This document shows, one piece after another, positions 6,358 to 29,175 of a stretch of 64,000 bases of DNA. Positions within the stretch are counted from its first letter, which is position 1, and every line of letters begins with the position of its first letter. Source of the DNA: Rhodoferax sp. (lineage in GTDB: Bacteria > Pseudomonadota > Gammaproteobacteria > Burkholderiales > Burkholderiaceae_C); assembly GCA_013791765.1 (NCBI GenBank), contig VMTC01000047.1, positions 1-64,000 of the forward strand. Direction: 5' to 3'. Both the position numbers and the translations under genes were made by a program. Below the pieces are notes generated by a model, which saw only the letters and a list, made by a program, of their open reading frames with translations, was not told the origin of the DNA and did not search any database.

Positions 6358-6626
6358 TGTGGAATGAAGGTCTGCTGTCGATAGATAGGGGGTGGAGTGG
6401 TTTCGCGGTGTCATGTCAGTCGTGAGGGGAAATGGTTGGCGGCGAACGCGAAGATGTAACGATTTCATGCCCCAGTCGGGTCCGTAGGTATGAAAGTCTG
6501 ATCAGCCTTCGGAATTGTTGCATAGACTTTGCGAAGCCGCAATGAATCTGGAGCGCCACTTCTGTGAAGGAGTTGCGCGGTCAATCCTGCTGGCCCTGTG
6601 ATCGCATTTACGTCAGCCATTCTGGG

Positions 6627-8609: not shown

Positions 8610-8722
8610 ATTAAACTGTTACAGAAATAGCAAAAACTTACAAAACCAATTGCTTTTTATCATAAATGGTTCAAATTTTCTTGAGTTGGGGCTTTATCCG
8701 GCACCTTGTGGGGGGCGAAAAG

Positions 8723-10720: not shown

Positions 10721-10774
10721 GTGTCAACGAGCGCCATGTGCGCGCGTACTCATTCAACAGAATCCAAGGTCGAT

Positions 10775-11482
10775 ATGCAATTTTCTGTGTCCCGGGGCTT
10801 GCTCCCTATGATGTTGGCGGCATCGCTGACTTGCCTGGGGCTTGGCGCCAATGCGCAGCCTGCGGGTTTGCTCTACGATCCAGAGCCCCCTCTGGACTCC
10901 GCTTATGTGCGTGTTGTTCTGGCCAGTCGCGACGGCGTGGTCGACGTGCGGGTCGATGGCCGCCCCCGAATTCAAAAGCTGGGCGCCGGCGAGGCCAGTG
11001 AATACATGGTGCTTGCGGCGGGTCAGCACACCCTTTCGGTTCATCCCGCTGGCAAGCCCAAGGCGTATCTGTCGACCACGCTGGATGTGGTCCGCGGGCG
11101 GGCAATGACTGTCGCATTTCCTGCGCTGCAGGTGGATACCCTGCCGGTCGTGTTTGAGGATAAAGCCAACTCGAACAAACTCAAGGCATTGGTGGCTGTT
11201 TACCACCTTGATGCCAAGGCGGGGCCACTCGATGTGCTTACTGCCGATGGCAACACCAAAGTGTTCTCCGCAGTGACCTATGGTGTTGCGGCGTCCATTC
11301 AGGTCAATCCGATTTCAACTGAGTTGATTGCAACCAAGGCTGGGGAGAAGGCGCCGAAGGCGCGCACCACGCTAACCATGACGCAAGGGGGTACCTACAG
11401 CATACTGCTGTTGCCGGGTGACGGAAGAAAATTGAATGCACGGGCGACACAAAATAAGATTGAGCGCTACACCGGCAAGTAA
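10775..11482 (+). CDS. AlgF/WssG-like periplasmic O-acetylation adaptor
   Basis: The ATG at 10775 follows AAGG and begins a Sec signal peptide ending near GANAQ; an upstream in-frame GTG touches the previous stop but adds residues unlike a signal. The mature part starts with AGLLYDPEPPLDSAYVRVV, very close to the AlgF opening, and continues as two beta-rich domains. The total length of 235 residues fits AlgF. In alginate and Wss cellulose systems AlgF works with AlgI and AlgJ to carry acetyl groups to the polymer in the periplasm. It lies between the deacetylase-like gene and the two AlgX-like genes, all in one direction. Confidence 0.8.
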   Translation: MQFSVSRGLLPMMLAASLTCLGLGANAQPAGLLYDPEPPLDSAYVRVVLASRDGVVDVRVDGRPRIQKLGAGEASEYMVLAAGQHTLSVHPAGKPKAYLSTTLDVVRGRAMTVAFPALQVDTLPVVFEDKANSNKLKALVAVYHLDAKAGPLDVLTADGNTKVFSAVTYGVAASIQVNPISTELIATKAGEKAPKARTTLTMTQGGTYSILLLPGDGRKLNARATQNKIERYTGK

Positions 11483-11542: not shown

Positions 11543-12544
11543 ATGCATAAACGCTTATTTAAAAGAACGCTAAAGAGTGCCCTTCTCGTCTGTGCCTTGG
11601 GTGTGATGGCTGCCCATGCGGCGGACCCGGCGCCCGTGATTGTTGGAAAGAATGACTGGCTGTTCACGCCTTACGAGTTCGCCAACCCAACTGATGCCCA
11701 GGATACCCAGGCAACGGTTCAATTGCTGCAAAAGGTAAACCGGCTGTTTGAAGCCAAGGGTATTGCATTGGCACTGGTCATTGTTCCGTCCAAAATCCGT
11801 ATTTATTCTGATCAATTGCCCGACAGTCACCCGTTGGATGCCTACACGTCCGGAAAATACGAAAAAGTGTTTGCTGAACTGCGCGCAGGCGGTGTCAATG
11901 TCGTGAACCTCAACCAGCCCTTTTTGACCAGCCCGCAGCGGCTTGGCGAATCGCCTTTTTTCCTGCGTCTTGATACCCATTGGGCGCACGCGGGCGCTCT
12001 GTTGGCAGCGGAAACCGTCAAGACCACAATTGATGCCAGCCCGGTTTTGAAGTCGGCGCTGGCGGCCACTCCCGAGGAAAAGTACACCTTGAGTTGGTCC
12101 AAGCAAAAAATAAACCAGCGTGCAAGAGACCTGGTCAAACTACTGCCCAAAGACGCGCCAAGCTTTCCGGCCGAACAAGCCATGATGTTCAAGGTGAACC
12201 GGGAGAAGGCTTCGCAGGCAGGCCTGCTCAGTACGGGCGACAGTGTCGGTGTTACCGTGATCGGCAGCAGTTATACGAATAAGAATACGGGTTACCCGGA
12301 TGGTCTTCGCTATTCGTTGCAGCGTGATCTTCTTGATATTTCAATTCCGGTTGACCAAGGCCCTTGGGTCGGCATGGAGGCGTATCTGCGTGACGATGCC
12401 TTCAAGACCAATAGGCCAAAGCTGATCATTTGGGAGATACCCGAGCGTGAATTGCGTTCGCCGCCCAACTACAAATTTCGGGATGCGCGGTACATAAGCG
12501 ATAACAACGAATGGTTTCAACGTGTGACGGCACTGCTGAAATAG
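11543..12544 (+). CDS. AlgX/AlgJ-like SGNH acetyltransferase, first tandem copy
   Basis: The 333-residue protein has a cleavable signal peptide (...GVMAAHAADPA). The SGNH hydrolase-like fold is marked by IVGKNDWLF, the DxH dyad in LDTHW, and the nucleophile Ser in IGSSYT; the end contains WEIPERELR. These are the catalytic features of AlgX and AlgJ, which move acetyl groups onto polysaccharide in the periplasm. The next gene is a close paralogue with an added C-terminal domain. This copy has only the catalytic domain. Confidence 0.8.
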   Translation: MHKRLFKRTLKSALLVCALGVMAAHAADPAPVIVGKNDWLFTPYEFANPTDAQDTQATVQLLQKVNRLFEAKGIALALVIVPSKIRIYSDQLPDSHPLDAYTSGKYEKVFAELRAGGVNVVNLNQPFLTSPQRLGESPFFLRLDTHWAHAGALLAAETVKTTIDASPVLKSALAATPEEKYTLSWSKQKINQRARDLVKLLPKDAPSFPAEQAMMFKVNREKASQAGLLSTGDSVGVTVIGSSYTNKNTGYPDGLRYSLQRDLLDISIPVDQGPWVGMEAYLRDDAFKTNRPKLIIWEIPERELRSPPNYKFRDARYISDNNEWFQRVTALLK

Positions 12545-12641: not shown

Positions 12642-14042
12642 ATGAAAAATTATCGGGGCGGAAAGTGGGTGTGGGCTGCAGTGTTCACAAGCGTTGTGGG
12701 CGCGACGGGTGTGCATGCTGCCGATCCCGCGCCTGCCATTGTCGGCAAGAACGAGTGGCTCTTTTATCGGTACGAGTTGTCGGACGCTTCTGACCAAGCA
12801 AAGACAGGGGAGTCTCTTTCACTTATTCAGCGCTTCAATAGAGTCCTGTCCGCCAATGGCATCAACATGGCGGTCGTCATGGTGCCATTGAAGATGCGTG
12901 TTTACGCAGAGCACTTGCCCGACGAAGTCAAGATCGATGGTTTTCTTGGAAGCAACTATGACCGCATGCGCAAGGGGCTACAGACTGCGGGGGTGAACGT
13001 GATTGATCTCAACACAGCGTTCCTGAACAGCCCCAAGCGAAGTGGTGAATCGCCATTGTTCTTTCGGCTTGACACACACTGGACTCCCACTGGCGCGATG
13101 GTGGCGGCCGAAACGATAAAGGCGTCAATTGAGGTTAACGCAGCCTTAAAAACGGCCTTGGCTGCAACGCCTGAGGAAGGCTACAAGATTGTGTATGGCA
13201 AGCGCCCGCGACCGTCCAGGGGGCGGGATCTGGTCGAGCAATTGCCGCCGAACTCCCCGACTTTCGCGCCCGAACAAGTGATACAAGTCAACGTCAGCCG
13301 GTCGCAGCCGCCGAAGGAAGACCTGCTCGGCAATCGCGCTCCGGCTGGACTCACTTTGGTCGGCAGCAGTTACTCATCCGAGTGGACCGGCTTTTCGAAC
13401 GCGTTGCGCTATGTGCTCCAGCGGGATGTGTTGGGCGTTTCAGTCGGCGCTGATCAAGGTTCGTGGGTCGGAATGGAGAGCTATCTCCGCGATGACTCGT
13501 TTCAAGCCAAGGCGCCCAAGTTGTTGTTGTGGGAAATGCCCGAACGCGACATGCGTGCACCGCCGGACTACAAGTTTCGTGAGGCACGTTATGTGAGCAA
13601 CAACACCGAATGGCTGTTGCGTGCGTCAGCCTGGGTTCAGGCCAGTTGCAAGCCCTCGTCCGTCACCGCCCGGTTGGCGAACCTTGGGCTGGGCGCCAAT
13701 CCAGTCAACGTCAAGGGTGCCGATGTCGTTACCGGACCGACTGGTGACAACGATTTTGTTGAATTTGTTTTCGACAAGCCGATGGGGCAATTGGATTATC
13801 TGGCGGCCCGCACCACCACAGCGGGGTCTAAGACAGTCACCCTGGAGGGGTCGGGCCCGGGCGTGACCACGCGCCGCTTCACCATCCATGTTGCAGGTGA
13901 CGATGCGGCGCATGCCTTCAGGACACCACTGCCTTCAAATGGCAATGGGTTTACCAAAGTGCGGGTGTTTCCAGGGAAAAGCAATGGTTTTTCGATCCTT
14001 GGCCTGCAGGTGTGCCGTCAGCCAGAAGACCTCCTCCAATGA
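12642..14042 (+). CDS. AlgX-like SGNH acetyltransferase with C-terminal beta (CBM-like) domain, second tandem copy
   Basis: The 466-residue protein carries a signal peptide (...VVGATGVHAADPA). Residues up to about 330 match the preceding gene, with LDTHW and VGSSYS as catalytic motifs. A further 130 residues, rich in predicted beta strands, follow. AlgX of Pseudomonas also has a C-terminal carbohydrate-binding module after its SGNH domain, so this copy is probably the true AlgX equivalent and the first a duplicate without the module. The gene is the last of the rightward operon and converges on the AlgJ-like gene, 36 bases away. Confidence 0.8.
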   Translation: MKNYRGGKWVWAAVFTSVVGATGVHAADPAPAIVGKNEWLFYRYELSDASDQAKTGESLSLIQRFNRVLSANGINMAVVMVPLKMRVYAEHLPDEVKIDGFLGSNYDRMRKGLQTAGVNVIDLNTAFLNSPKRSGESPLFFRLDTHWTPTGAMVAAETIKASIEVNAALKTALAATPEEGYKIVYGKRPRPSRGRDLVEQLPPNSPTFAPEQVIQVNVSRSQPPKEDLLGNRAPAGLTLVGSSYSSEWTGFSNALRYVLQRDVLGVSVGADQGSWVGMESYLRDDSFQAKAPKLLLWEMPERDMRAPPDYKFREARYVSNNTEWLLRASAWVQASCKPSSVTARLANLGLGANPVNVKGADVVTGPTGDNDFVEFVFDKPMGQLDYLAARTTTAGSKTVTLEGSGPGVTTRRFTIHVAGDDAAHAFRTPLPSNGNGFTKVRVFPGKSNGFSILGLQVCRQPEDLLQ

Positions 14043-14078: not shown

Positions 14079-15188
14079 CTACAGCGATAAAGCTTGTTTC
14101 TCCGGATCACTCAACGGCGCGGAGAACACGCGTTCAGGCACCTCCCAAACGATGACCTGCGGCTTTGCGCTCTTGAACGACTCATCGGCAAAGTAGTCTT
14201 TGGCCGACTGAATGAAGCCACCGCCGTCACGTGACACATTCAGAACTTCTGCGCCAAGCGCTTGTTGAAAATGGCCATGAAAGTTGGCCCGTAGCGAGTA
14301 GGAGGTACCGATCAACACAACAGGAACGCCGACGTTGTCAAACAGCCCGGCGGGTTGGGCGGTACCGGATTTGCGTGTGTGCACTGATATCTCCATATCG
14401 GGCGTCGGACGGGCCCAGTTGGGCATGTCGCTCAGTCCCATCATGCGCAACAAATCACCCGGCCTTTGAACCAATGGCCCTGTCGGACCGGTCTCGAATG
14501 AGGTGGGGGGGAGATCAGCCGCGACGGCCTTCACTCGTTCGGCCACGGCGACTGCGGCGAGTTGGGCGCCGTGCTGATTCCAATGGGTGTCAGTGCGGTA
14601 GTAAAGCGGCGATTCTTCATTTTTCGGGGTCAATGCCGGTAGCAAGTCAGCGACCGCCACCCCTTGGGCGCGCAAGGTCTCCAGAATGAAGCCGTAGCGA
14701 TCGGCGTGCCAGTGGGGGTAGAGTCCCGTAGGCAGGTGTTGCGGGTATATTCGCGCCTTGTCTGGCACCGGCGCAACGATCAGGGTGACGCCTTGGGCTT
14801 TGAGGGCCATCGCGGCCTTGGCCAGCACGGCAATTCGGGCATTTTGATGAGTCCGCACCTCATCAAAATACTGCAACTCTTCCACCGAAAACAACCAGTC
14901 GTCCAGGCCCAATCGCACCTGGTCGCCGGCGCCATGCGTGAGGACATAGCGGCCTGCATTGGCCCAGGCGATCAACTCGTTTCTGATCGGCAGGTTTTTG
15001 TCCAATTGAGTGCTCACAGCGCCCGTGACCCGGCCTTCCCGAAAATCCGCGAGGGTGATAGGTATTTCTTGTATGGCGGGCGAACCGAGCGCGATCGCTG
15101 CCTGCCACAAGCCAGCGGCCATCACCCCCAGCATGGCGGCGCACGCCGCCCATTCTTCCGGCGCAAATTTTGTCGTGGGTTTGGTCAT
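14079..15188 (-). CDS. algJ: AlgJ/WssI-like membrane-anchored O-acetyltransferase
   Basis: The 369-residue protein has an uncleaved N-terminal membrane anchor (about residues 13-33) and a periplasmic SGNH domain with GLDDWLF, TDTHWNQHG (DxH) and IGTSYS (Ser nucleophile); it ends near VWEVPERVF. It lies eight bases after the AlgI-like gene. The AlgI-AlgJ pairing is the standard unit for periplasmic polymer O-acetylation. The signal-anchor rather than a cleavable signal separates it from the two AlgX-like proteins. Confidence 0.85.
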   Translation of the reverse strand: MTKPTTKFAPEEWAACAAMLGVMAAGLWQAAIALGSPAIQEIPITLADFREGRVTGAVSTQLDKNLPIRNELIAWANAGRYVLTHGAGDQVRLGLDDWLFSVEELQYFDEVRTHQNARIAVLAKAAMALKAQGVTLIVAPVPDKARIYPQHLPTGLYPHWHADRYGFILETLRAQGVAVADLLPALTPKNEESPLYYRTDTHWNQHGAQLAAVAVAERVKAVAADLPPTSFETGPTGPLVQRPGDLLRMMGLSDMPNWARPTPDMEISVHTRKSGTAQPAGLFDNVGVPVVLIGTSYSLRANFHGHFQQALGAEVLNVSRDGGGFIQSAKDYFADESFKSAKPQVIVWEVPERVFSAPLSDPEKQALSL

Positions 15189-15195
15189 GGGGGGC

Positions 15196-16581
15196 TCAGA
15201 ATTGGAAGTAGAGGAAAGGGGTAAAGGCCTGCGACGACAAGGTCGCCACCGCCCACAGGAACAACGGTATCAGCAGTATGCGCAGTGCGCCTTCGGCGCG
15301 TCGTCTGAGCCATGGCAACGCAAACACCAGCACCGCACCGAACAGCATTACCCACAACCTCTCGGGAGCAATCTGCCATGCCAGGGCAGGACTCACGGCC
15401 GAACCCGCCAACCCCGCCATGCCGGACAGCATTCGAAACGCAGCTCCCAAATCAGCGGCCCGGAAAAAAACCCAGCCAATCATCACCATCAGCAGCGTCC
15501 AGACGACCGCAACTGGCCGGGGTAGCCGTGGCTCGGGGTGGCGCTCACGCCAGAATCGCTCCAGCGCCAGCAAACCGCCGTGCCACGCGCCCCAGACCAG
15601 AAAGGTCCAGTTGGCCCCATGCCACAGGCCTCCCAGCACCATGGTCAATGTCAGGTTGATATAGGTCCGGCCGCGTCCAAGGCGGTTTCCTCCGAGTGGC
15701 ACATAGAGGTAAACGCGCAGCCAGGTGGACAGCGACATGTGCCAGCGCCGCCAGAACTCGGTGATGGAGGCGGAGGTGTAGGGGTCATCGAAATTTTTGG
15801 GAAAGTGGAACCCGACCATCAGGCCCAGTCCAATGGCCATGGTGCTGTAACCGCTGAAATCGAAAAATAGCTGAATGGTGTAGGCTGTCACGCCGAGCCA
15901 GGCGTCAAGCAGGGACGGCGCGTGGATGGAAAATGCAGCATCCACCAGCGGCGCCATGGGGTCGGCGACGAGCACCTTGCCACAAAAGCCGGCCATGAAG
16001 ACCAGGCAGCCCTGCGAAAATATCTTCAGGGAATGCTCGCGATGCCGAAACTGGTCTGCCAGTGGTTGGTAGCGCAGCACTGGACCGGCGACCAGCTGGG
16101 GAAAAAAGGAGATGAACGCTGCGAAGTCGAACAGATTTTCTGTCTTGGGTGCATCCCCCCGGTACACGTCCACCATGTAGCTGATCGCCTGAAAAATAAA
16201 AAATGACAAACCGATGGGCAAAATCACGCGCGTGTACTCGAACGGTGAAAAGCCGACCCAGGTCAGCATGGCATTGAAACTATCGACGCCAAAATTGAAA
16301 TACTTGAAATAGGCCAGGGCGCCGAGGTTGAGTACCACCCCCAGCGTCAACACAGAGAAGCGACGCGAGCGCCATTGGGCGGACTCCATGGTGAGCGTCA
16401 GCACGTAGGTTACGGCCGTTACGGCACCGAGCAGCAGGGCGAAGTCGGGGCGCCACCAGCCATAAAAAAAATAGCTGAAGAGGAGGATCTGGAGTGATCG
16501 AAACCGGAACGGGAGCAGATAGTAGGTTGCCAAAAAAATCGGCAAAAAGACGAAAAGAAACAGGTTGGAAGTGAAAACCAT
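15196..16581 (-). CDS. algI: AlgI/WssH-like MBOAT membrane O-acyltransferase
   Basis: The 461-residue polytopic protein has about ten hydrophobic segments. The MBOAT signature is clear: FDFSGYSTMAIGLG, TEFWRRWHMSLSTWLR, YVPLGGNR and GGLWHGANWTF with the conserved catalytic His. It is expected to move an acetyl group from a cytoplasmic donor across the inner membrane for AlgJ/AlgX-type enzymes. It is preceded by the GH18-like gene and followed at once by the AlgJ-like gene, at the end of the long leftward operon. Confidence 0.9.
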   Translation of the reverse strand: MVFTSNLFLFVFLPIFLATYYLLPFRFRSLQILLFSYFFYGWWRPDFALLLGAVTAVTYVLTLTMESAQWRSRRFSVLTLGVVLNLGALAYFKYFNFGVDSFNAMLTWVGFSPFEYTRVILPIGLSFFIFQAISYMVDVYRGDAPKTENLFDFAAFISFFPQLVAGPVLRYQPLADQFRHREHSLKIFSQGCLVFMAGFCGKVLVADPMAPLVDAAFSIHAPSLLDAWLGVTAYTIQLFFDFSGYSTMAIGLGLMVGFHFPKNFDDPYTSASITEFWRRWHMSLSTWLRVYLYVPLGGNRLGRGRTYINLTLTMVLGGLWHGANWTFLVWGAWHGGLLALERFWRERHPEPRLPRPVAVVWTLLMVMIGWVFFRAADLGAAFRMLSGMAGLAGSAVSPALAWQIAPERLWVMLFGAVLVFALPWLRRRAEGALRILLIPLFLWAVATLSSQAFTPFLYFQF

Positions 16582-16685: not shown

Positions 16686-17822
16686 CTACTGAGTCGGTGG
16701 TGTTTTGGCCTTTTCAATTTGATCAATCAAGTCTTGAAGACTTCGCGGACCACGTCGTCGAAAAAAATAGTCCACCAACTGCCCATCGTCGTAGCCCAGC
16801 GAAAAAAAAGCGATTCCACCGAGCTGCTCATTCAACAAATAATCAATTTTTCGTCCCAATGTCCACCAGTCCTCGAACCAGCCTTCCATATACTGCCCGT
16901 CCTTTCTCCTGAACTGGTAATACGAGGACCCACTGGCCGTATCGTGCGAGGCGCCATATCGCCTGACTTGGTCCTGGACGTTGAACTCAATGTCGTGTGG
17001 CCGATCGACATGGATAGGTGCGAATGATGTGGTCGATCCTTTTCCAATGGTGGCGCTGCGAAGCGTTTGCCCTTTCACCATCCATTCGTAGCCGTAAAGA
17101 GGAAAGCCCAGCAGCATGCGTGTGTTTGGCACCCCAAGCGATGCACCCAAGGCGACGGCTTTTTCCCAAGTCACCGCGTCATTGCCGGTCAGGGGCGCAA
17201 CCGGGCCAGCGGCCTTGCTCTCGAGCCAATGTGAGTCATAGCCCTGCAGTACGACATGATCGACTTGTCCCAGAGTGGCTGCGTCATAGAGTCTGGACTC
17301 GCCACCTACCGGCAAGAAGACCGACAGATTTTTGGGCGGGGATTGCAGGCGTAAACGTTTTGAAAGCGCACCGACAAACTCTCGGTAACGGTCAATGGCA
17401 TCCGGGCGCGCGTGACTGTAGATTTCGAAGTCGAGTTGCAGTCCATTGACGCCTTCACCGCCTGCCAGCGATGACGCTTCATCCAGCAAACGGACAGTCG
17501 CGTTCGTTGATGAAAAAAGGGTGTTGAAAGCCGCTGGCTCGAACAGTGTCAGGGTCAGGTCAAGTGGCGTATTGTTCTGGCGGGCCGCCAGCCGCAAATC
17601 CGCCCATTTTTCGGGCCAACCGTGCCGTTCGGCGATCTCCCCAGTGGGGCTCACCTTGAGCTCGAAAAACAACAAGCGATCTAGTTGCCCCAGTGCGACG
17701 GTGCGCCAACTCTGGGGCTGCCACCAACCAATATAACCCCAGGCCTTTGGTGTTTCTGCACTGACGCTGCCCTGAAGCAGCAGTGCCAGTAGCAGGCAGG
17801 TGCTCAGGCGACGGAAATGCAT
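16686..17822 (-). CDS. Secreted GH18-type glycoside hydrolase
   Basis: The start at 17822 gives a typical signal peptide (MHFRRLSTCLLLALLLQGSVSA) 13 bases after the BcsQ stop; longer in-frame starts would lie inside the bcsQ copy. The 378-residue protein has GH18 features: the active-site strand GVNGLQLDFE (D131, E133, with Asn instead of the first Asp of the usual DGxxxDxE), VVLQGYDSHW, LGFPLYGYEW and GGIAFFSLGYDD. GH18 enzymes cut or bind beta-linked GlcNAc polymers; PgaB also carries a hydrolase domain. Cellulose operons normally carry a GH8 cellulase (BcsZ), so a GH18 member here points to an amino-sugar polymer. Confidence 0.75.
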   Translation of the reverse strand: MHFRRLSTCLLLALLLQGSVSAETPKAWGYIGWWQPQSWRTVALGQLDRLLFFELKVSPTGEIAERHGWPEKWADLRLAARQNNTPLDLTLTLFEPAAFNTLFSSTNATVRLLDEASSLAGGEGVNGLQLDFEIYSHARPDAIDRYREFVGALSKRLRLQSPPKNLSVFLPVGGESRLYDAATLGQVDHVVLQGYDSHWLESKAAGPVAPLTGNDAVTWEKAVALGASLGVPNTRMLLGFPLYGYEWMVKGQTLRSATIGKGSTTSFAPIHVDRPHDIEFNVQDQVRRYGASHDTASGSSYYQFRRKDGQYMEGWFEDWWTLGRKIDYLLNEQLGGIAFFSLGYDDGQLVDYFFRRRGPRSLQDLIDQIEKAKTPPTQ

Positions 17823-17835
17823 TGATGAATGCCGA

Positions 17836-18585
17836 TCATTGCTGGAGGCTGTCGAGCAACCAGTCCACGACGTACTGAATATCCAGACTCGCCTTGCAGC
17901 CGGGCTCGTATTCAAGTACCGGCCGTTCAAAGGCAAGTGCCTGGGCAACCCGGGGGTCCTTATGAATGGCGACAGGAACGACCTGTTCGGCATGGTCCGC
18001 ATAGAGCGCCATTCGCACCTGATGTCCGAGTTTCCCTTGAGACGGCATCTGGTTGATCAACAGGTTCATGCCGCGAAAATCGGTCCGGCCGACGGTGTAT
18101 TGGCTGACCAGAGACTCAATCTGGGGGATGCTTGCATAGGATGCAGCATCCGCCAGTACAACCACCAGCGCGCGATGCGCCGCCCGCAAGGCCTGATGCA
18201 AGTAAACAGTCGGGCCTGGCGGTGTGTCGAGCAGGACGAAGTCGACGGCTTCTGAACGCAGCGCGTCAATGCCGTTAGCTACCCACCTCGGATTCGCCTT
18301 GAGTTCAGTTTCGAAATTCAGCAACTCGACCGGGCTAACACGTCCAAACGGAATAAATTTGATGTCAAACGGGCTATCGAACAAAGACGCGGGTGAAATG
18401 CCTTCACGAACCAGACCCGCGATTTCATCAGGGTCCATTCCAAGATGCAGTCGCTGCGCATTCTGCGGATCCAGATCAATCAGCACGACGCGCTTCTTCC
18501 GCTGCGCGAGGGCCACGGCCATGTTGGCGGCAAGGGTGGTTTTGCCGACGCCCCCTTTGCCAGAGATAAAAGCGATTACTTGCAT
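17836..18585 (-). CDS. bcsQ: BcsQ-like MinD/ParA ATPase, second copy
   Basis: The 249-residue protein begins with the deviant Walker A box SGKGGVGKTTLAAN, followed by VVLIDLDPQNAQ and LLDTPPGPTVYLHQAL. BcsQ (YhjQ) proteins place and support the cellulose synthase complex at the inner membrane. A second homologue lies at 23607-24371; the two share the PPGP switch region, SYA(S/T)IP and ALAF(E/Q)(R/Q)PVL. Having two copies in one operon suggests paired or polymer-specific ATPases that might form a heterodimer. Confidence 0.85.
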   Translation of the reverse strand: MQVIAFISGKGGVGKTTLAANMAVALAQRKKRVVLIDLDPQNAQRLHLGMDPDEIAGLVREGISPASLFDSPFDIKFIPFGRVSPVELLNFETELKANPRWVANGIDALRSEAVDFVLLDTPPGPTVYLHQALRAAHRALVVVLADAASYASIPQIESLVSQYTVGRTDFRGMNLLINQMPSQGKLGHQVRMALYADHAEQVVPVAIHKDPRVAQALAFERPVLEYEPGCKASLDIQYVVDWLLDSLQQ

Positions 18586-18622: not shown

Positions 18623-19126
18623 CTAGGGAATCCGACCCAGTGAGGTCGAAAGTTTCAGAATCAGGGCATCCCCCGGTGTGTCCGGATCCGATGACGATGG
18701 ATTGATTTTGGCCGCGCTCGGCTTGGGGATTGTCAACGGTGCGCCAGGTACTGGGTGCTCCGACTTCGGCGGCGGCGATGCCTTGTTGTTTGCAGACGCT
18801 GCCGCCGTCAACGCGGCAGACAGCCTGCCCAGGCTGCGGGGCGCAGGGCTTATACGGTTGGCTCGCTCAAGTAAGGCTCGGGCTTCGCCGGGGCGATCAG
18901 CACGCACTTCAATCAGACCCAACTCGACCAGTGCCTCACCATGGATGGGGTCGGTCCGCAACAACTTGCGCCAGATTTCTGCCGCAAGATCGTCCCGATT
19001 CTTTTGTTGCCATTGACGCGCCTGGTCGACCAGTTGACTCGTCATCAGGTCGTCTGCCGGCCAGACTGGACGCATCAGTGAACCCAGCGCCAGAATGAAC
19101 AAGACCACGGCTTTCATGCTCGGCAT
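18623..19126 (-). CDS. Small periplasmic TPR protein, BcsC N-terminal-like
   Basis: The start at 19126 lies eight bases after bcsB and begins a signal peptide (MPSMKAVVLFILALGSLM...). The 167-residue protein has one or two TPR-like helical pairs (DLAAEIWRKLLRTDPIHGEALVELGLIEVR) and a Pro/Ser-rich tail. Bcs operons normally place the large TPR-barrel protein BcsC after bcsB; here only a short TPR piece is present. The barrel could be supplied by the 4966-6357 protein. Family assignment is weak and no domain beyond TPR is visible. Confidence 0.6.
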   Translation of the reverse strand: MPSMKAVVLFILALGSLMRPVWPADDLMTSQLVDQARQWQQKNRDDLAAEIWRKLLRTDPIHGEALVELGLIEVRADRPGEARALLERANRISPAPRSLGRLSAALTAAASANNKASPPPKSEHPVPGAPLTIPKPSAAKINPSSSDPDTPGDALILKLSTSLGRIP

Positions 19127-19133
19127 TGACCGT

Positions 19134-21434
19134 TCAAGAGGCTCTTTTGGTTCGCCGTGCGACCAAGCGGCGCAGGGGTCGATAAACCAAGGCTGCTGCA
19201 AGTATGATGATCAGGATGCCGAGCAGGGCAAGCAACAAGGGCTGATCTGAAAAAAACCAGCGCACCTTGCTGAGATTCGGTAGGGAGCCGACATAGTAGG
19301 TCGGACTGACTTTGGCGTGGTCGACGCTTTTGTCATCCACCACAGCAAAATCACCCTGGATCGCCGCCACACGTTCGGCATCCGTCAGCACATCAGAAAT
19401 CTTCCGCAAATCCGCCGACTTGTCGGCGAACAGAAGGACCACGCTGCGCGCTGACTGCAATGGGGATTCGAAGGCCATGACTGCGGTCAGGTTGCCGCTG
19501 CCACTCAAGTTCAAACTGCCTCTGGGCAACGGCCTCGACTGGACATCCTGTTGACCCCAGCGGTAGGTCGGCATCCAGGTGGCATCCGCCTCGCGGACGC
19601 GCCGCTCACCGTTCACTTGCACCATCGGCAGGTGATCGGTCCATTGGGTCATCAAGCTTTGATTTGTTGCCGAGCCAATCACAATGAGATCGCGGGACGC
19701 CACCTTTGCAACATCGGTTGCAGACACCACTGCATGTTGCAGCGCGGGATAGGCGGTGGACTCCCCCATCCGGCCCATAAGGGTCAGGTACAGGCCAATT
19801 TCATCTGCGTTGGGGCGCTCGGGCAAAACCACGGCGGTTTCAGAAAGATCGGCCATCCGTGTGAACGGAAATCCGATATTTCCGAAATAGGCCAGGTTGG
19901 GCAAGGCTGCATAGCGGGGAAAGCCGCTGAAATCGAGTGTTGACTCCGGGTCAATGGCCGCCTGTAGATTGTCCGGGGGTAAATTGCGGCATTCCCCCTC
20001 CTTGATCACGTCAAAAAAGTAGCTCAATTGCAGTTGATCGCGACCGCCGGTGGCATAGGGCGGAATGAACAAGGATTCCTCGCGCAGCGCCTTGTTCTCC
20101 ATGTCAATGGGATTGCGCGGGTCATTTTCTTTGGCCTTACCGTCCGGTTCATTCAATGCCAGCGTCTGAATAAAATTCGCGTTGATGTTGACGTTGAGAC
20201 TGGAGTTTTTGTGCAGCGGTAAACGGGTTGCGCGATATTTCAGTTTGACGGGCGTCCCCGGCGTGCGCCAGGTGAACAGATCGGGCGCAACACGGTAATT
20301 CAGGCGAATGACCTCCGGAAAGTAGCCCTGAACCCGCAACTCCTCAGGTCGCGCCAATTCGCCAAATCGCACCGGGCGGTCTGTGGGAATCCAGGCCGGT
20401 GCATCATAGGGCTTGCGAGGGGCGGCCGCGGTTTCGCTGGTGACCGTTACCAGTTGGCCCGTGAGCGTCGGGGCAATCAAGGCGATGGCGCGCGCGGCCC
20501 GCGCCAGTTCCTCGTCAGTGCTGCCCGTCACCAGCAACAGCTTGGCGTGCGGGTTGGTCGGATGTGGCTGGATGGAAACGGTCGACCCTGCTAGTCCCTT
20601 GACGCCATCAATGCTGTCTCCTGCTCGCATGAATACAACCGCGTTGCCCAGCGGTAATGCATTGAGCATGACAGGAAATTGGGCGCCCCGAGGGCCGGCC
20701 TGCATTCCGAACCACGATGCCACAACGCCGGCCGACTTGAGCGCGCCGAAAGTGGGTGGGCTGGCAAATACGAATGGCAACTTCAGCGGGACATTGTCAA
20801 ACCTGTCAAAAAACGGGGCGGGCAGATGCCGAAGGTCGTTGGTCACCGACAAAGGGGCCAGCGTCAACTCGATGCGACCCAGGTCACTCAAGGTGAGCCA
20901 TAGCGAGGAATGGAATGGGTCTTCGCATTGACGGGTGTAATGCCCGATCAAATTGAATCTGAGACTATTGACTTCGCCGAACAGCCTCGGATCCAGATTG
21001 ATCTCACGGGTATTGGCCAGAGCCTTGTCTTTTGGCAGCGCCTCCATCATGGCCATCCGCTCGTTCACCAGCACTTTGAGGTGGCTCAGCTCGGGAATCA
21101 GGGCGGGCGAATAATCGTAGGCGATTCTCAATTTTGCGGCGACCACCACTTCATCGGCGCGAACGGAAAAATTCAGCGTACGGGACGCGTCAACGCCGCG
21201 CAGGGTGACTGCCGACCATGCACCCATTTGTTTGAATGTGAGAGAGACCACGCGTTGCCCCGTGGGCATGTCCTTGTCGCCCACAATAAAGGACTCATTG
21301 CCTGCCTGGGCCTTGGCGGCACGTGACTTGGATTCGCCTTGGGCCGGTGTAAATATCCCCGTGACAGCCAAAGCCAGTGCGGCAACCAACGCGGTAACGG
21401 AGGGTGCTCTCCCAAATAATTGATGTTTGATCAT
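19134..21434 (-). CDS. bcsB: BcsB-like periplasmic cellulose synthase subunit
   Basis: The 766-residue protein has a signal peptide, alternating carbohydrate-binding-like and flavodoxin-like domains, and a C-terminal membrane helix (about 735-755) followed by basic residues. Typical BcsB segments include LTFKQMGAWSAVTLRGVDAS, GHYTRQCEDPFHSSLW and PPYATGGRDQLQLSYFF. BcsB guides the nascent chain through the periplasm and binds BcsA through its terminal helix. The start codon is one base after the bcsA stop (TGA-C-ATG). The length is in the usual BcsB range. Confidence 0.9.
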   Translation of the reverse strand: MIKHQLFGRAPSVTALVAALALAVTGIFTPAQGESKSRAAKAQAGNESFIVGDKDMPTGQRVVSLTFKQMGAWSAVTLRGVDASRTLNFSVRADEVVVAAKLRIAYDYSPALIPELSHLKVLVNERMAMMEALPKDKALANTREINLDPRLFGEVNSLRFNLIGHYTRQCEDPFHSSLWLTLSDLGRIELTLAPLSVTNDLRHLPAPFFDRFDNVPLKLPFVFASPPTFGALKSAGVVASWFGMQAGPRGAQFPVMLNALPLGNAVVFMRAGDSIDGVKGLAGSTVSIQPHPTNPHAKLLLVTGSTDEELARAARAIALIAPTLTGQLVTVTSETAAAPRKPYDAPAWIPTDRPVRFGELARPEELRVQGYFPEVIRLNYRVAPDLFTWRTPGTPVKLKYRATRLPLHKNSSLNVNINANFIQTLALNEPDGKAKENDPRNPIDMENKALREESLFIPPYATGGRDQLQLSYFFDVIKEGECRNLPPDNLQAAIDPESTLDFSGFPRYAALPNLAYFGNIGFPFTRMADLSETAVVLPERPNADEIGLYLTLMGRMGESTAYPALQHAVVSATDVAKVASRDLIVIGSATNQSLMTQWTDHLPMVQVNGERRVREADATWMPTYRWGQQDVQSRPLPRGSLNLSGSGNLTAVMAFESPLQSARSVVLLFADKSADLRKISDVLTDAERVAAIQGDFAVVDDKSVDHAKVSPTYYVGSLPNLSKVRWFFSDQPLLLALLGILIIILAAALVYRPLRRLVARRTKRAS

Positions 21435-21435
21435 G

Positions 21436-23610
21436 TCATCGTTTCCATTTTTGAATCCAGTGGCCCAATCGCACCAATCTCATGGCATGGGCCAGTTTTT
21501 CGATGAACGAGAGCAGCCTGACGAAGGCCGCAATCATGGGTTTTGTTAGCCACTCGGGAAGCGGCCGGTCGGCGTTTCGACCTGGAAGCCATTGTGGCCA
21601 GTTCTGATCCCGGGAGAAGGCTGCGACACCGAGCCGCTGAAAGTCGTTCTGCGCGGCATCCATGATGCCAACATGCATAAAAAGGTCCTGATTCGACACC
21701 ACGCGTGCCGGGAAGGCGAATTCCCGGTCGCCGCGAAAGATGGATAAGCCTACTGTCGCTCCCACCTCGACCCCTGCTGGCGCAGGAAGTCTCATGGCGA
21801 GAGCGGCTTGCGGGAAATTTTCAGTCACGCACGACAGCGTTCGCCCCGACGGTAATTGCAGCATGGCTGGCTGGCGCCGTTGCGTGCGTGAATGCAGACG
21901 AATTTGTCGGGATTCCTCCGCCACGGCGAGCATCGCAGCCAGAAGCATGAGGTTGCAGATCACCCAGCCGAGGTACATGGTGGTGAGCACCTGAGCGCCA
22001 CGGCCTGTTGTCATCAGTTCAGCCACACCCGCGCCCAATCCAGCCAGATTCAAGGCAAGAACAGTCGCATAGGGCCAGGCGATGATGGGATCAAATGGGT
22101 CGACCTTGTCCGTCTTGTTGGGACTGAACGCGTCCTTGAATTTGCCGAACTCGGTGCGCAGCAGCGTCAACGCAGTGGGCACAAGCAGGTACCAGGCCAG
22201 TGCAGTCTCGCGCATATCGGTCCAGAAAGTGAACCAACTCTTTCCCTGCAATCGCGCCTGGGCAAAGTGAGCGTGTACCAGGTGCGGCAAGCCGTAGGCC
22301 AATAGGTATTCGGGGGTTGTTTCAACGACGTGCACCCCGGCAAGCAGATAAGCCAGTGGTGCGGTAAAAAAAACCAGGCGTGGCACGGCGTAGTAGAACT
22401 TCAGCATGGCCTGTAAAGATGCCAGCCGCTGCTTCCAGCGCAGAGTCCGCCCCAGGAATGGGTGATCCACTCGCAATAATGTCTGGGTCGCAGTGCCGCT
22501 TGACTCTGCGCCTCGGGCCTGTTGCGCATTGTCTGGCTGGTCTTCTCCGGCGAAACCGATCCACGCGTTGCCGTAGCCCCCTTGCTGAAACTTCAGCGCC
22601 GTGTGCGCTTGAACTGTCGGGGGCCCAGGCGCGATCCCACCCACTTTGACCAACATCGAACGGCGAATCAGTGCGCAGACTCCCGCGAACTGGCTGACGG
22701 GACAGTCTTTCAGATTGACTTCTGACGCGGGTGGAGCGAGGAAGTGCGTCGGGGGCTGGATCATGCCCAGGCTCAAATGTCGGACAAACCAACCAGCAGC
22801 AACTTTCAGAAAGTTGGACGCGGGTGCCTGATCAAGGTCGAAAACTGCAATCAATTCCCCCTTGGTTTCGGGCAAGGCAGCATTGATGGCGCCCGCTTTG
22901 CCGCCCTGATTGTCTGGATGGGCCAGGTAGATTGCGCCCATGGACTCGGCAAGTTCCTTGATCTCATGCCTTGTGTCGTCATCAAGAAGATAGATATTGA
23001 TTATCTTTCTTGGCCACTCAAGTGCAAGGGCAGCCAGGGTGGCCCGCCGGATCGGGTCCTCGGATTTGCCGTGGACAGGTATAAAAACGTCGACCGTTGG
23101 CCACTCAGTGGAATCTTTTTTCAGGGGGGATGGTGGCCGCGTCAGGGGCCAAACGGATTGCGCAAATCCGAGTGCAATCAACACACAAAGAAATAGCTCC
23201 GCCATGCACAGGCCAAAGCCCCAGACAAAGTCCGCGCTGAAACCCTGCCCCAGGGTGGTACTGAAGCGCCAGGCAAGGTAACGCGTTGATGCCAGAAGCG
23301 ACATCCCCAACAGCACCAGTGTCACCATCGTACCCGCGTAGCGTCGAATATAAAGGGCGGCGCTGAAAAAACAGGCAGCGAAAAAAATTTGCGCACCGAG
23401 CGTAAAACTGACTGTGAGCATCAAGATAAAAACCGCAAGGCTGGCCATTAATGCCAGGACAGTCACGCCTGGCACCGACCACAGCCTGGCTTGTGTCAGC
23501 GCGCTGCCCCATTGGTTGAGCTTGCCCTGCACATAGGGCCGCTCGACAGCGCTGTGGGTTGGCTTGCCCCAACGCGCGCGCCAGAGAGACAGCACCAGCC
23601 TCGGGTTCAT
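21436..23610 (-). CDS. bcsA: BcsA-like cellulose synthase catalytic subunit homologue with missing catalytic motifs
   Basis: The start at 23610 overlaps the bcsQ stop as ATGA and gives 724 residues; an ATG 24 bases upstream is possible. N-terminal membrane segments, a GT-A domain, further membrane segments and a PilZ-like tail keep the BcsA plan. Present are VDVFIPVHGK, YLLDDD, DNQGGKAGAIN and the DxD in VFDLDQAP. Missing are two essential motifs. The TED site reads GGIAPGPPTVQAHTAL (22594-22641), and no QxxRW occurs in the following segment (22444-22572), where only QQARG is found. The FFCGS gate reads FAGVC. In the PilZ part arginines remain (SRTQRR), but DxSxxG reads NFPQAA. The frame is open throughout, so this is not simple decay. 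Confidence 0.85.
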   Translation of the reverse strand: MNPRLVLSLWRARWGKPTHSAVERPYVQGKLNQWGSALTQARLWSVPGVTVLALMASLAVFILMLTVSFTLGAQIFFAACFFSAALYIRRYAGTMVTLVLLGMSLLASTRYLAWRFSTTLGQGFSADFVWGFGLCMAELFLCVLIALGFAQSVWPLTRPPSPLKKDSTEWPTVDVFIPVHGKSEDPIRRATLAALALEWPRKIINIYLLDDDTRHEIKELAESMGAIYLAHPDNQGGKAGAINAALPETKGELIAVFDLDQAPASNFLKVAAGWFVRHLSLGMIQPPTHFLAPPASEVNLKDCPVSQFAGVCALIRRSMLVKVGGIAPGPPTVQAHTALKFQQGGYGNAWIGFAGEDQPDNAQQARGAESSGTATQTLLRVDHPFLGRTLRWKQRLASLQAMLKFYYAVPRLVFFTAPLAYLLAGVHVVETTPEYLLAYGLPHLVHAHFAQARLQGKSWFTFWTDMRETALAWYLLVPTALTLLRTEFGKFKDAFSPNKTDKVDPFDPIIAWPYATVLALNLAGLGAGVAELMTTGRGAQVLTTMYLGWVICNLMLLAAMLAVAEESRQIRLHSRTQRRQPAMLQLPSGRTLSCVTENFPQAALAMRLPAPAGVEVGATVGLSIFRGDREFAFPARVVSNQDLFMHVGIMDAAQNDFQRLGVAAFSRDQNWPQWLPGRNADRPLPEWLTKPMIAAFVRLLSFIEKLAHAMRLVRLGHWIQKWKR

Positions 23611-24371
23611 CGGTTCAATGTATTGATGACCCAAGACGCCAGCCGAGCCAGATCGTGACTGGCTTGTCCGTGCGGGTCGTAGACCAGGACTGGCTGTTGA
23701 AAAGCAAGCGCTTCCCCGACAGCCTCATCGCGATGAATACCAATCGGCGCCAGCCTTGCGCCCAAATGCCGTTGCAATTGTTCGGCCACGTCGCGATTCA
23801 ATGGCTCGCTCCGGTCGATTTGATTGAGGACATACAGGCTGGGGGGGCGAAAATCGGAATCCGGCACCTCGTCCAGCCACGACTCCATTGCCGGAATGGT
23901 TGCGTACGAACCGGCATCCGCCAGCAAAACGATCAAGACCAGATCGGCGCAGGCAAAAACCTGCCGCATGTAGACGGAGGGGCCTGGCGGTGTGTCGATC
24001 AGCACGACGGCATCGTTCCCGAGCCCCGCGCGTTTGACTTGGGCGCCCACCCATTGAGAGTCTGTTTCAAGCAGCAACTCAAAGGCCTCGCGGTCAGGCT
24101 CGCTGACGTTGCCGTAGGGCAGGCAGGCCACGCCGAATTCGCTGGACGCCATGGCGTCAGCCCAATCGGCACCGCGCAGGGATTGTTCACACACGCCCGC
24201 AGTGAGCGCGCTTTGAAGTCCAAAATGCCAGTGCAAGGCGTTCTGTGGGTCGAGATCCACGACGGATACGCGATTCGCGCCAAGCGTGGTTGCCATCGCG
24301 GCGGCGAGATTGGCGGTCGCAGATGTCTTTCCTACTCCGCCCTTCATCGAAACAATGCCAATGACACTCAT
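23607..24371 (-). CDS. bcsQ: BcsQ-like MinD/ParA ATPase, first copy
   Basis: The 254-residue protein opens with the Walker A variant MKGGVGKTSATANL; VVDLDPQNALHWHFG and VLIDTPPGPSVYMRQ follow. It overlaps bcsP upstream and bcsA downstream by four bases each (ATGA), so bcsP, bcsQ and bcsA are translationally coupled. BcsQ takes part in locating and activating the synthase complex. It is about as long as known BcsQ proteins and is paralogous to the copy at 17836-18585. Confidence 0.9.
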   Translation of the reverse strand: MSVIGIVSMKGGVGKTSATANLAAAMATTLGANRVSVVDLDPQNALHWHFGLQSALTAGVCEQSLRGADWADAMASSEFGVACLPYGNVSEPDREAFELLLETDSQWVGAQVKRAGLGNDAVVLIDTPPGPSVYMRQVFACADLVLIVLLADAGSYATIPAMESWLDEVPDSDFRPPSLYVLNQIDRSEPLNRDVAEQLQRHLGARLAPIGIHRDEAVGEALAFQQPVLVYDPHGQASHDLARLASWVINTLNR

Positions 24372-25018
24372 CGTCGCCCCAGCCGCCCCAAGAACGAAGA
24401 CCGTTTGGCATCGGGGCTGGCAACCACTTTTGCTTTCTCCGCGCCTTCCAATCGTTTAAAAACGCCTTTGAGCGAGTTGTCTTCGCAGGCGTCAGCCATT
24501 TCATGGGGTTCGGAAGCGATTGCGGTTGTCGCTGGAGCCTTGAACAACCCAAGGCCGGTTGGACTCTCGCGCACGACAGAAGTCACCTGCGGTGGTGATG
24601 AAGCCGAGATGCCGTGAGCTTCGGTTTGCGACGCATTCGGTGGGGGGCGAATACTGCGCACCGGGGTGGCAGGGGGATGGCTCGGCGCGGCTTGCTTGAC
24701 TGCTATCGGCGCGGGGGGCACCGGTGCCATGCGCACCGACATCTTGCCCAGACTGTTGGCCAACTTGTCGGCCAAGCCCGGAAGCGTCAAGGCGGGGGTA
24801 CCTCGGTCGTTATTCGATTGATCCCCTGCGGTCCATCGTTGCCGTTCTTCCTCGGTCAGAGCGGGGGTCGGCGCTGCCTTCGCGGGTGACATGGCCCTGA
24901 ACAGCGGCCATCGCTGTTCGAGCTCACGCGCTGAAGCGCTCCCGTCCGCCTGAAAATCAGCGTCATCAGCGCCCAGGGATCGGAATAGTTTGGGAAGGTC
25001 GTCTTTAGGATGGGCCAT
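24368..25018 (-). CDS. BcsP/BcsR-family cellulose biosynthesis protein
   Basis: The 216-residue protein starts with KDDLPKLFRSLGADDADFQ, the short acidic N-terminal motif of BcsR/BcsP proteins, and continues as a Pro/Ala-rich, probably disordered chain. It ends with a basic segment (KRSSFLGRLGRR). BcsR in enterobacteria is a small partner of BcsQ; in betaproteobacteria the longer BcsP form precedes bcsQ, as here. The gene lies 21 bases after bcsD and overlaps bcsQ by four bases. The assignment rests on the N-terminal motif and gene order. Confidence 0.75.
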   Translation of the reverse strand: MAHPKDDLPKLFRSLGADDADFQADGSASARELEQRWPLFRAMSPAKAAPTPALTEEERQRWTAGDQSNNDRGTPALTLPGLADKLANSLGKMSVRMAPVPPAPIAVKQAAPSHPPATPVRSIRPPPNASQTEAHGISASSPPQVTSVVRESPTGLGLFKAPATTAIASEPHEMADACEDNSLKGVFKRLEGAEKAKVVASPDAKRSSFLGRLGRR

Positions 25019-25039: not shown

Positions 25040-25513
25040 TCAGTTGCTCGCGCGCCCAAAGCGCAGGCGGATATCCATGCCCTGGGACAATTCATCAATG
25101 CCACGAACGACCATCGTATCGCTTGCACCGAGCACGCTGAACACACTCTGGTAAAAGCCTTCGAGCAGGCCAATACTCCAATTCAGCGCATCATCGCCAA
25201 ACGCCTCTGCCAAGGGCGCAGTCTGGTGCGCAATGTCAATATAGCCATCAACCTCGGTGAGATCGACCCATCCCCAGTTAATTTGGTTCCAGAAATCATT
25301 AAGGCTGTCTTCAAGCTGCGTAAGGGTTTGCGCACCCTGGAATATCTCTTCTGCATCTTTGGCAAAACGCTCGCCAACTCTGAAAAAAAGTTGTCGCAAG
25401 TCCCTCACCTCTGTATGCGCAGACATTTCCGACGCCATCGCGCGCAAAACGGGCAACCATTGCAGAGATACCTGTTGCCCCCTGAAATAGCTTTGTAAAT
25501 TGTCGCTGGTCAT
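25040..25513 (-). CDS. bcsD: BcsD cellulose synthase subunit D
   Basis: The 157-residue protein matches BcsD in length and in segments such as QWLPVLRAMASEMSAH and FWNQINWGWVDLTEVDGYIDI. In Komagataeibacter, BcsD forms a cylindrical octamer that helps arrange glucan chains into ordered fibrils. It is the first gene of the long leftward operon, and the 128 bases before it should hold the promoter; no convincing -35/-10 pair could be picked by eye. A BcsD next to a degenerate BcsA is unexpected and supports a structural role for the Bcs parts. Confidence 0.85.
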   Translation of the reverse strand: MTSDNLQSYFRGQQVSLQWLPVLRAMASEMSAHTEVRDLRQLFFRVGERFAKDAEEIFQGAQTLTQLEDSLNDFWNQINWGWVDLTEVDGYIDIAHQTAPLAEAFGDDALNWSIGLLEGFYQSVFSVLGASDTMVVRGIDELSQGMDIRLRFGRASN

Positions 25514-28560: not shown

Positions 28561-28703
28561 TGGAGAGAGTTCAAGCGGTCAAAACCAGGCATCCAATCGT
28601 AGGCTTGTCTTGGGGTACTGGCCTTGGTGTTAACCCTGTAGGGTTCCCGTCAAACGTATGATCCAGATCGTTGTCGTTCTAAAATTGAGGCGGGGTTAAC
28701 AGC

Positions 28704-29102
28704 ATGACTGAAAGTGAACAAAGCAGTTTGAAAGTGAGTGCGCCGGGGCGCGCTGCGACCGCCCCGGCCAGCCCAGAGCCGACGCAGGAGACCCGTAGAG
28801 AGCCGCGCAAGCTGGTGGCGGGGCGCATCAAGCTCGCGACCGACTCTGGCTGGCGTCAGGAGGGGCGCATGCTCGATCTGTCGATCGGCGGCCTGAGTGC
28901 CACGATGGAAGACCCGATCCGCCCCGGGGTGCTGTGCCTGCTGGACGGCGAGATTGCGCACAACGGGAAAATACACACCATTTCAATCATCGCCAAGGCC
29001 ATCGATAGCATCCTGGTGCGCGGCAAAGGCTATCGCATTGGGTTCCAGTTTCAAAAAGTCAGCGACGGCAGTGTCGCCGTGATTCGGATGCTGCTGGGTT
29101 GA
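28704..29102 (+). CDS. PilZ-domain c-di-GMP receptor protein
   Basis: The 132-residue protein has an Ala/Pro-rich N-terminal stretch and then a PilZ domain. The c-di-GMP signature is complete: RREPRK provides the arginines and DLSIGGLS the DxSxxG part. It is divergent from the four-PAS GGDEF-EAL gene (143 bases between them) and precedes another GGDEF-EAL gene. It could relay c-di-GMP to the polysaccharide machinery or to type IV pili; its partner cannot be seen from sequence. Confidence 0.85.
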   Translation: MTESEQSSLKVSAPGRAATAPASPEPTQETRREPRKLVAGRIKLATDSGWRQEGRMLDLSIGGLSATMEDPIRPGVLCLLDGEIAHNGKIHTISIIAKAIDSILVRGKGYRIGFQFQKVSDGSVAVIRMLLG

Positions 29103-29175
29103 CAATGCAAGTCAATCGCGTTCTCAGGCTCAAAATGGTGGTGGTTCATTTCTGCTGACATACGCGCTGCACATC

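Follow-up and report, generated by a model that had tools for sequence, protein, structure and literature searches.

Background

Bacterial bcs clusters usually encode a GH8 hydrolase, BcsZ, and the Wss operon for acetylated cellulose carries Alg-type acetylation genes together with two BcsQ-type genes. For E. coli, the available portions of PMC11470070 describe the BcsR plug and BcsQ as bound to the GT-PilZ face of the cellulose synthase BcsA; they also attribute a BcsR-like end to BcsP. According to the accessible text of PMC7439463, BcsE of E. coli is able to keep activation going when BcsA carries no c-di-GMP, and the part of PMC11379886 at hand places TPR#1 of E. coli BcsC on the BcsB crown. 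BcsA-like orphan proteins are the topic of PMC10237404. Here we describe a bcs operon, found in a window of 64,000 nucleotides (the whole stretch of Rhodoferax sp. DNA that was analysed), in which the bcsA-derived gene has lost motifs typical of the synthase. We call its product pseudo-BcsA.

An intact frame with lost synthase motifs

The pseudo-bcsA gene (21436..23610, minus strand) encodes 724 amino acids. Its ATG start codon and the stop of bcsQ share the tetranucleotide ATGA (23610-23607), its own stop lies 1 nt from the start of bcsB, and the intact 724-codon frame joined to bcsQ that the first-pass annotation had described was thus borne out. The same holds for the motif changes it had listed. 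TED is replaced by GPPTVQ (22609..22626, minus strand; amino acids 329-334), and the former QxxRW stretch now reads NAQQARG (22510..22530, minus strand; amino acids 361-367), with no RW after the Q. The gate motif is changed as well: the FNVTxKGG gating loop, whose key columns are at least 95% conserved in 28 catalytic BcsA, is not kept. Further losses came to light beyond that annotation, namely a 21-residue deletion before the position of FFCGS, whose loop is lost, and the replacement of the PilZ motif DxSxxG by NFPxxx (21805..21819, minus strand), NFP being present in 22 of 22 pseudo-BcsA compared. The UDP-site motifs DDD (in LLDDD) and DxD (in FDLD) are still present in the window copy and gone from most of its relatives, and the two arginine columns of PilZ RxxxR hold R in only 50% and 32% of pseudo members.

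Descent from BcsA is supported by full-length homology and by the bcs gene context. The NCBIfam scores are under cut-off, at 410 against 699 for TIGR03030 and 468 against 992 for NF008558. Foldseek and VIA-align rank BcsA chains first for the structure model, with an rmsd near 38-42, the model itself being only moderate (pLDDT 70.7, pTM 0.52); because its domains are misplaced relative to each other, we make no statement on a membrane path. Judged by its motifs, pseudo-BcsA is almost certainly without catalysis.

Some residues do not vary at all among pseudo-BcsA, among them those of WRxRW, RYxxWR and TxNFP, and R666 (an alignment number counted from the second codon, the true residue number being one higher). 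By a count made by eye, R666 aligns with the E. coli hinge residue R792, which speaks for a scaffold reading of the protein. E. coli R367, a residue that likewise touches BcsR, is by eye not retained, which counts against that reading.

A single group of proteins in 23 genomes

Pseudo-BcsA was found in 23 genomes, as 21 complete frames, one frame cut by a contig end and one split over two contigs; the hosts are some freshwater and soil bacteria. A three-protein profile detected it in 17 of 89 genomes of the window's genus, 2 further genomes having catalytic BcsA only. Searches of 299 genomes of the same family and of a named genome collection added the rest, that is G130, G083 (the split copy), Noviherbaspirillum galbum, and MAGs named Hydrogenophaga, Polaromonas and Burkholderiaceae (the last cut by the contig end). 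The G083 copy (L168, 11129-12727) is a very degenerate pseudo-BcsA in which NFP is still there.

We sought the same substitutions in the orthologues, and TED and QxxRW are absent from all pseudo members read. In the main motif comparison, 18 of 18 pseudo rows (L050 being counted as pseudo by motif) have no TED, QxxRW or FFCGS, against intact TED and QxxRW in 49 of 49 other BcsA rows (46 genes, three of which give two rows each); four pseudo members read later likewise have neither TED nor QxxRW at the site, so that the loss extends to 22 of 22 compared. Orthologues with intact motifs were looked for and none was found, intact BcsA being a separate gene outside the pseudo clade. Among 369 genomes of the class, 14 besides the window's gave matches at E 1e-40, and all 19 matches keep TED and QxxRW. 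A homologue search matched 36 genomes, motifs being read in the retrieved subset, with weaker matches excluded. By similarity, 505 plasmid records match, all of them below 60% identity. In a tree of 50 proteins, which is unrooted and has L050 on a long branch and five rows of odd composition, a branch with 100/100 support sets the 22 pseudo-BcsA apart on one side. A search of the window's own genome for another BcsA, catalytic included, found none.

A sequencing or assembly error is ruled out, since the losses recur in 23 genomes. A compensated frameshift was considered too, and the overlapping frame of 22322-22792, read by eye, contains neither TED nor QxxRW. The only QxxRW string in a pseudo member (L155) is located near the N-terminus and not at the site. 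In Noviherbaspirillum galbum, a BcsA-like frame of 620 amino acids (L190) proved to be another GT2 with partial BcsA similarity and no TED or QxxRW strings.

Constraint shifted away from the catalytic domain

Whole-gene dN/dS is 0.20-0.33 for pseudo-BcsA (seven pairs) versus 0.08-0.20 for catalytic BcsA (four pairs, same genus), and for the GT domain 0.12-0.25 versus 0.03-0.04 (four pairs each); it is at most 0.35 across all pseudo-BcsA pairs and regions computed, with the caveat that some methods failed on saturated pairs. Pseudo-bcsA evolves faster than bcsB, bcsQ and the GT2 gene described below, in a comparison where BcsB and BcsQ pairs may mix paralogues.

Regional identities sharpen this picture. 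Pairwise identity in the GT core is 0.33 among pseudo-BcsA versus 0.68 among catalytic BcsA, and the stretch from TED to QxxRW, at 0.27 versus 0.78, has passed from most to least conserved region. TM5-8 fall to 0.31 from 0.60, whereas TM1-4 stand at 0.38 versus 0.41, PilZ at 0.40 versus 0.34, and the C-terminus is conserved at the level of catalytic BcsA. The N-terminus reaches 0.65 versus 0.17, the N-termini of the mixed catalytic set being heterogeneous. Constraint is thus gone from the catalytic domain and kept in TM1-4, PilZ and the N-terminus. The dN/dS values show that purifying selection maintains the protein. Together with the regional shift in identity and the invariant residues, they suggest that a folded protein has been retained from which neither catalysis nor c-di-GMP binding through the known motifs is still required.

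The earlier suggestion of a non-catalytic job for the retained gene is supported, at the level of sequence, by the 21 complete frames, the whole-gene dN/dS, the single clade and the conserved non-catalytic residues. That job had been put as scaffold or channel. The scaffold would fit better, because TM1-4, PilZ and the N-terminus are constrained; the channel fares poorly, because the identity of TM5-8 is halved and the gating loop lost.

The operon around pseudo-bcsA

The operon runs BcsD-BcsP-BcsQ-pseudoBcsA-BcsB-short TPR-BcsQ2-GH18-AlgI-AlgJ, all on the minus strand. BcsD (25040..25513) matches PF03500. The N-terminus of the BcsP-like protein (24368..25018) matches NF040718 at E 2.6e-5, below cut-off, and BcsQ (23607..24371) is above the cut-off of TIGR03371. 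Downstream lie a full-length BcsB (19134..21434; PF03170, 693 bits), a short TPR protein of 192 amino acids (18623..19201), a second BcsQ paralogue, BcsQ2 (17836..18585), also above cut-off for TIGR03371, a GH18 hydrolase with its catalytic D and E kept (16686..18002), an AlgI-like MBOAT acyltransferase (15196..16581) and an AlgJ/AlgX-like protein (14079..15188; PF16822). The type I/hybrid set of BcsD, BcsP, BcsQ and BcsB is therefore present, BcsP below its cut-off. Two large frames at 25642-31740, GGDEF-EAL-like by eye, adjoin the bcsD end, near which a small PilZ protein is also encoded (28704-29102).

A full-length BcsC was sought in the window operon and is absent; the 192-residue TPR protein is all there is, and it matches weakly (E 7.5e-4) positions 6-98 of the 1157 of BcsC. 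GH8 (BcsZ) was not found among the cluster proteins scanned, in which GH18 is present. Over the 23 pseudo stretches, some of them short, we count BcsD in 20, BcsP in 19, BcsQ in 22, BcsB in 22, BcsQ2 in 19, the TPR protein in 11, GH18 in 16 (13 clear, three weak), AlgI in 13 and AlgJ in 13, so that neither GH18 nor AlgI is universal; the corresponding figures for 8 catalytic stretches are 0 for GH18 and 2 for AlgI. The D and E of GH18 are kept in 14 of 14 rows. In 18 of the 19 pseudo operons showing both BcsB and BcsQ2, the gap between them is at most 892 nt, and therefore too small for a full-length BcsC; in Noviherbaspirillum galbum it is 3059 nt and holds a frame of 901 amino acids. Catalytic operons have a gap of 4889-5832 nt in 7 of 8 cases (2273 nt in the distant G012) and BcsC-like frames of 1260-1442 amino acids in 8 of 8. 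G347 has a BcsC-like frame of 213 amino acids in one operon and of 1350 in the other.

A second module with a PgaC-like glycosyltransferase

A second module, with the gene order BcsE-TPR protein-GT2-deacetylase, is found on the far side of a divergent set of AlgX, AlgF and deacetylase-like genes. The divergent genes, on the plus strand, encode two AlgX-like proteins (12642..14042 and 11543..12544; both PF16822), an AlgF-like protein (10721..11482; PF11182) and a degenerate deacetylase paralogue (8666..10720). The module itself, on the minus strand, comprises BcsE with an RPGD I-site (6627..8609), a TPR protein (4966..6468), a PgaC-like GT2 synthase with DDG, DxD, AED and QxxRW intact (3620..5032) and a polysaccharide deacetylase (1508..3400). 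At the cluster edge, a transposase at 108-1292 adjoins this deacetylase gene. The O-acetylation set is enlarged: between 11543 and 15188 there are three proteins of AlgX/AlgJ type (PF16822), next to a single AlgI and a single AlgF.

Rows were taken from a bit score of 500 upwards (GT2, deacetylase 1), or from 450 (deacetylase 2), 400 (BcsE), 220 (BcsQ) and 200 (GH18). The catalytic motifs of GT2 do not vary in any of 26 rows, which come from 24 genomes (L122 and L163 being repeats of two); its score is 222 bits, against 422 for the PgaC equivalog cut-off. The c-di-GMP I-site RxGD of BcsE is kept in 15 of 15 rows; a split copy in G376 and a weak one in G083 are among those left out below cut-off. 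In the deacetylase at 1508-3400, D, T and E occur in 23 of 23 rows and both His in 21 of 23; these five residues we take to be metal ligands. Its paralogue at 8666-10720 is 31% identical to it, retains few of the residues presumed to bind metal, and looks like a second pseudoenzyme in the same cluster. In the TPR protein at 4966-6468 only TPR is recognised; an outer-membrane barrel is guessed from sequence pattern, and the structure model has a pLDDT of 31.7. With its PgaC-like synthase, this module, which the first-pass annotation had not noticed, offers a plausible purpose for the dead protein.

Pseudo-BcsA and GT2 occur together. Among 89 genomes of the window's genus, 15 have both, 2 pseudo-BcsA only (G345, G374), 2 GT2 only (G372, G373) and 70 neither (Fisher p 5e-13); for the 50 good genomes, with a completeness of 90% or more and a contamination of 5% or less, the corresponding numbers are 7, 0, 0 and 43 (Fisher p 1e-8), both p values ignoring shared ancestry. 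The GT2 orthologues, in 17 of these 89 genomes, share 73-88% identity (the window's own aside); matches in G350 (33% identity) and two extra matches in G368 (30-31%) were not scored as such. Overall, GT2 is present in 20 of the 23 pseudo-BcsA genomes, and was not found in G345 (86% complete), G374 (75% complete) and G852 (1.8 Mb). Among 399 genomes of the same family GT2 occurs in six: G000, G121, G130 and G083 with pseudo-BcsA, G012 with catalytic BcsA, and G291 (58% complete), in which neither pseudo- nor catalytic BcsA was found.

Linkage is variable. The two modules are found close together in the window, G328, G305, G376, G130 and Noviherbaspirillum galbum, an isolate (17J57-3) that has both within 27 kb and no Alg-type gene in 38.6 kb, and in which a canonical BcsA was looked for at E 1e-5 and not found; the distance between them is 63 kb in G121 and about 1.35 Mb in G303. 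In G130 the order is unidirectional, TPR-GT2-deacetylase-BcsD-BcsP-BcsQ-pseudoA-BcsB, and BcsE was not found within 40 kb around. Six genomes of the genus carry pseudo-BcsA, catalytic BcsA and GT2. Against a swap of synthases speak G372, G373 and G012, which have GT2 and catalytic BcsA without pseudo-BcsA, and also the position of the catalytic operon, which adjoins the GT2 module in 4 of the 6 genomes with two BcsA (G347, G361, G315 and G364); G366 is probably a fifth, on split contigs, and in G348 the catalytic operon is on another contig. Further points against it are G291, the three pseudo-BcsA genomes without GT2, the wide spacing of the modules in G121 and G303, the missing BcsE around G130, the patchy occurrence of GH18, AlgI and the Alg-type genes, and the moderate quality of the structure model.

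Possible roles of pseudo-BcsA

Pseudo-BcsA might have a rearranged active site and still work as a transferase. The window copy does retain DDD and DLD, and purifying selection continues to act on the GT domain, but pseudo members do not conserve the motifs of the base, the acceptor site and the UDP site, and the extra constraint on the GT domain is lost; we regard such activity as extremely improbable. It is hardly credible, too, that the gene is a decaying relic, in frame by chance: the low dN/dS in every pair and region, the number of complete frames and the invariant residues of NFP, RYxxWR and WRxRW all argue against it, even if faster evolution than bcsB, bcsQ and GT2 is what a relic would show. 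A regulatory decoy, or a partner of catalytic BcsA where both exist, would suit the six same-genus genomes that have both BcsA types. However, catalytic BcsA was not found (E 1e-10) in nine genomes of the genus that have both pseudo-BcsA and GT2, the window's included (four of them less than 90% complete), and the common partner is GT2, so that this role is very unlikely.

A closer rival, which we consider unlikely nevertheless, is that pseudo-BcsA does more than anchor Bcs parts and belongs to the PgaC-like synthase itself as a direct, obligate subunit, forming a heteromeric export path or acting as an activator. PgaD is a comparable partner of PgaC, and the tight co-occurrence with GT2 and the one-direction gene order in G130 point this way; GT2 without pseudo-BcsA in G372, G373 and G012, and the poor conservation of TM5-8 and of the gating loop, do not.

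We favour, as reasonably probable, a Bcs machine whose synthase has been swapped, pseudo-BcsA being the non-catalytic membrane core or scaffold for a PgaC-like polymerase. This is suggested because the scaffold genes are kept, because catalysis, PilZ sensing and the outer-membrane exporter are lost or altered, and because the second module offers a candidate replacement for each of these. In this system the other GT2 probably does the polymerising, and the dead BcsA would help to hold the machine together. The membrane part of pseudo-BcsA would anchor the BcsB crown. BcsQ and the BcsR-like end of BcsP, and with it the BcsD scaffold, would attach to its PilZ domain and N-terminus, c-di-GMP sensing passing to BcsE. 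The PgaC-like GT2 would make the chain, probably of N-acetylhexosamine. The chain would then be deacetylated, and in many members GH18 would trim it and Alg-type enzymes would add O-acetyl groups. The TPR protein may export the polymer, and the BcsC-like remnant, reduced to the part that in E. coli binds BcsB, may be an adaptor. That the polymer is of hexosamine type is a guess, made because of the PgaC-like GT2, the deacetylase and GH18.

A natural, selected, dead BcsA separates the structural role of cellulose synthase from catalysis, and surfaces still conserved after the loss of catalysis are a way to find the contacts of BcsA with BcsB, BcsQ and BcsP. If the swap of synthases is true, Bcs scaffolds can serve other polymers, bcsA and bcsB genes are no proof of cellulose, and automatic annotation may misname such proteins.

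Comparison with known systems

We found no account of the system in the literature on pseudo-BcsA and mixed Bcs-Pga clusters, which is weak evidence of novelty, subscription journals being little covered; the available portions of PMC8250860, PMC11379886, PMC11470070, PMC7439463 and PMC7112194 contain no pseudo-BcsA of this kind. We give even chances to a new architecture of synthase-dependent polysaccharide secretion, in which a Bcs scaffold (BcsB, BcsD, BcsP, BcsQ and BcsE) would be uncoupled from cellulose. Its own synthase, now dead, would have been retained as the structural core, with NFP as a new conserved surface, and would have been replaced as polymerase by a PgaC-like enzyme that makes a deacetylated, often O-acetylated hexosamine polymer.

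Compared with BcsA, the UDP-forming cellulose synthase (PDB 4hg6, 9fmv, 9fp0), the window protein has lost TED, QxxRW, FFCGS, the gating loop and DxSxxG, and scores far under the NCBIfam cut-offs. The PgaC-like GT2, the deacetylase and the TPR protein recall the Pga system of PNAG; unlike there, GT2 stays at 222 against the PgaC cut-off of 422 and stands among Bcs and Alg-type acetylation genes. With the Wss operon of acetylated cellulose the locus shares Alg-type acetylation genes and two BcsQ-type genes, whereas the window's genome has no active BcsA and the cluster proteins scanned include no GH8. It departs from type I/hybrid Bcs clusters in that the synthase is dead, the BcsC-like gene is shortened and GH18 stands where GH8 BcsZ is usual. 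What it shares with the betaproteobacterial clusters of that type, as given in the accessible text of PMC11470070, is the gene series BcsD-BcsP-BcsQ-BcsA-BcsB together with BcsE. Finally, the sfz stalk cluster of Zetaproteobacteria, for which the available portions of PMC8250860 mention no pseudo-BcsA, resembles the window system in pairing a BcsB-like subunit with a GT2 other than BcsA.
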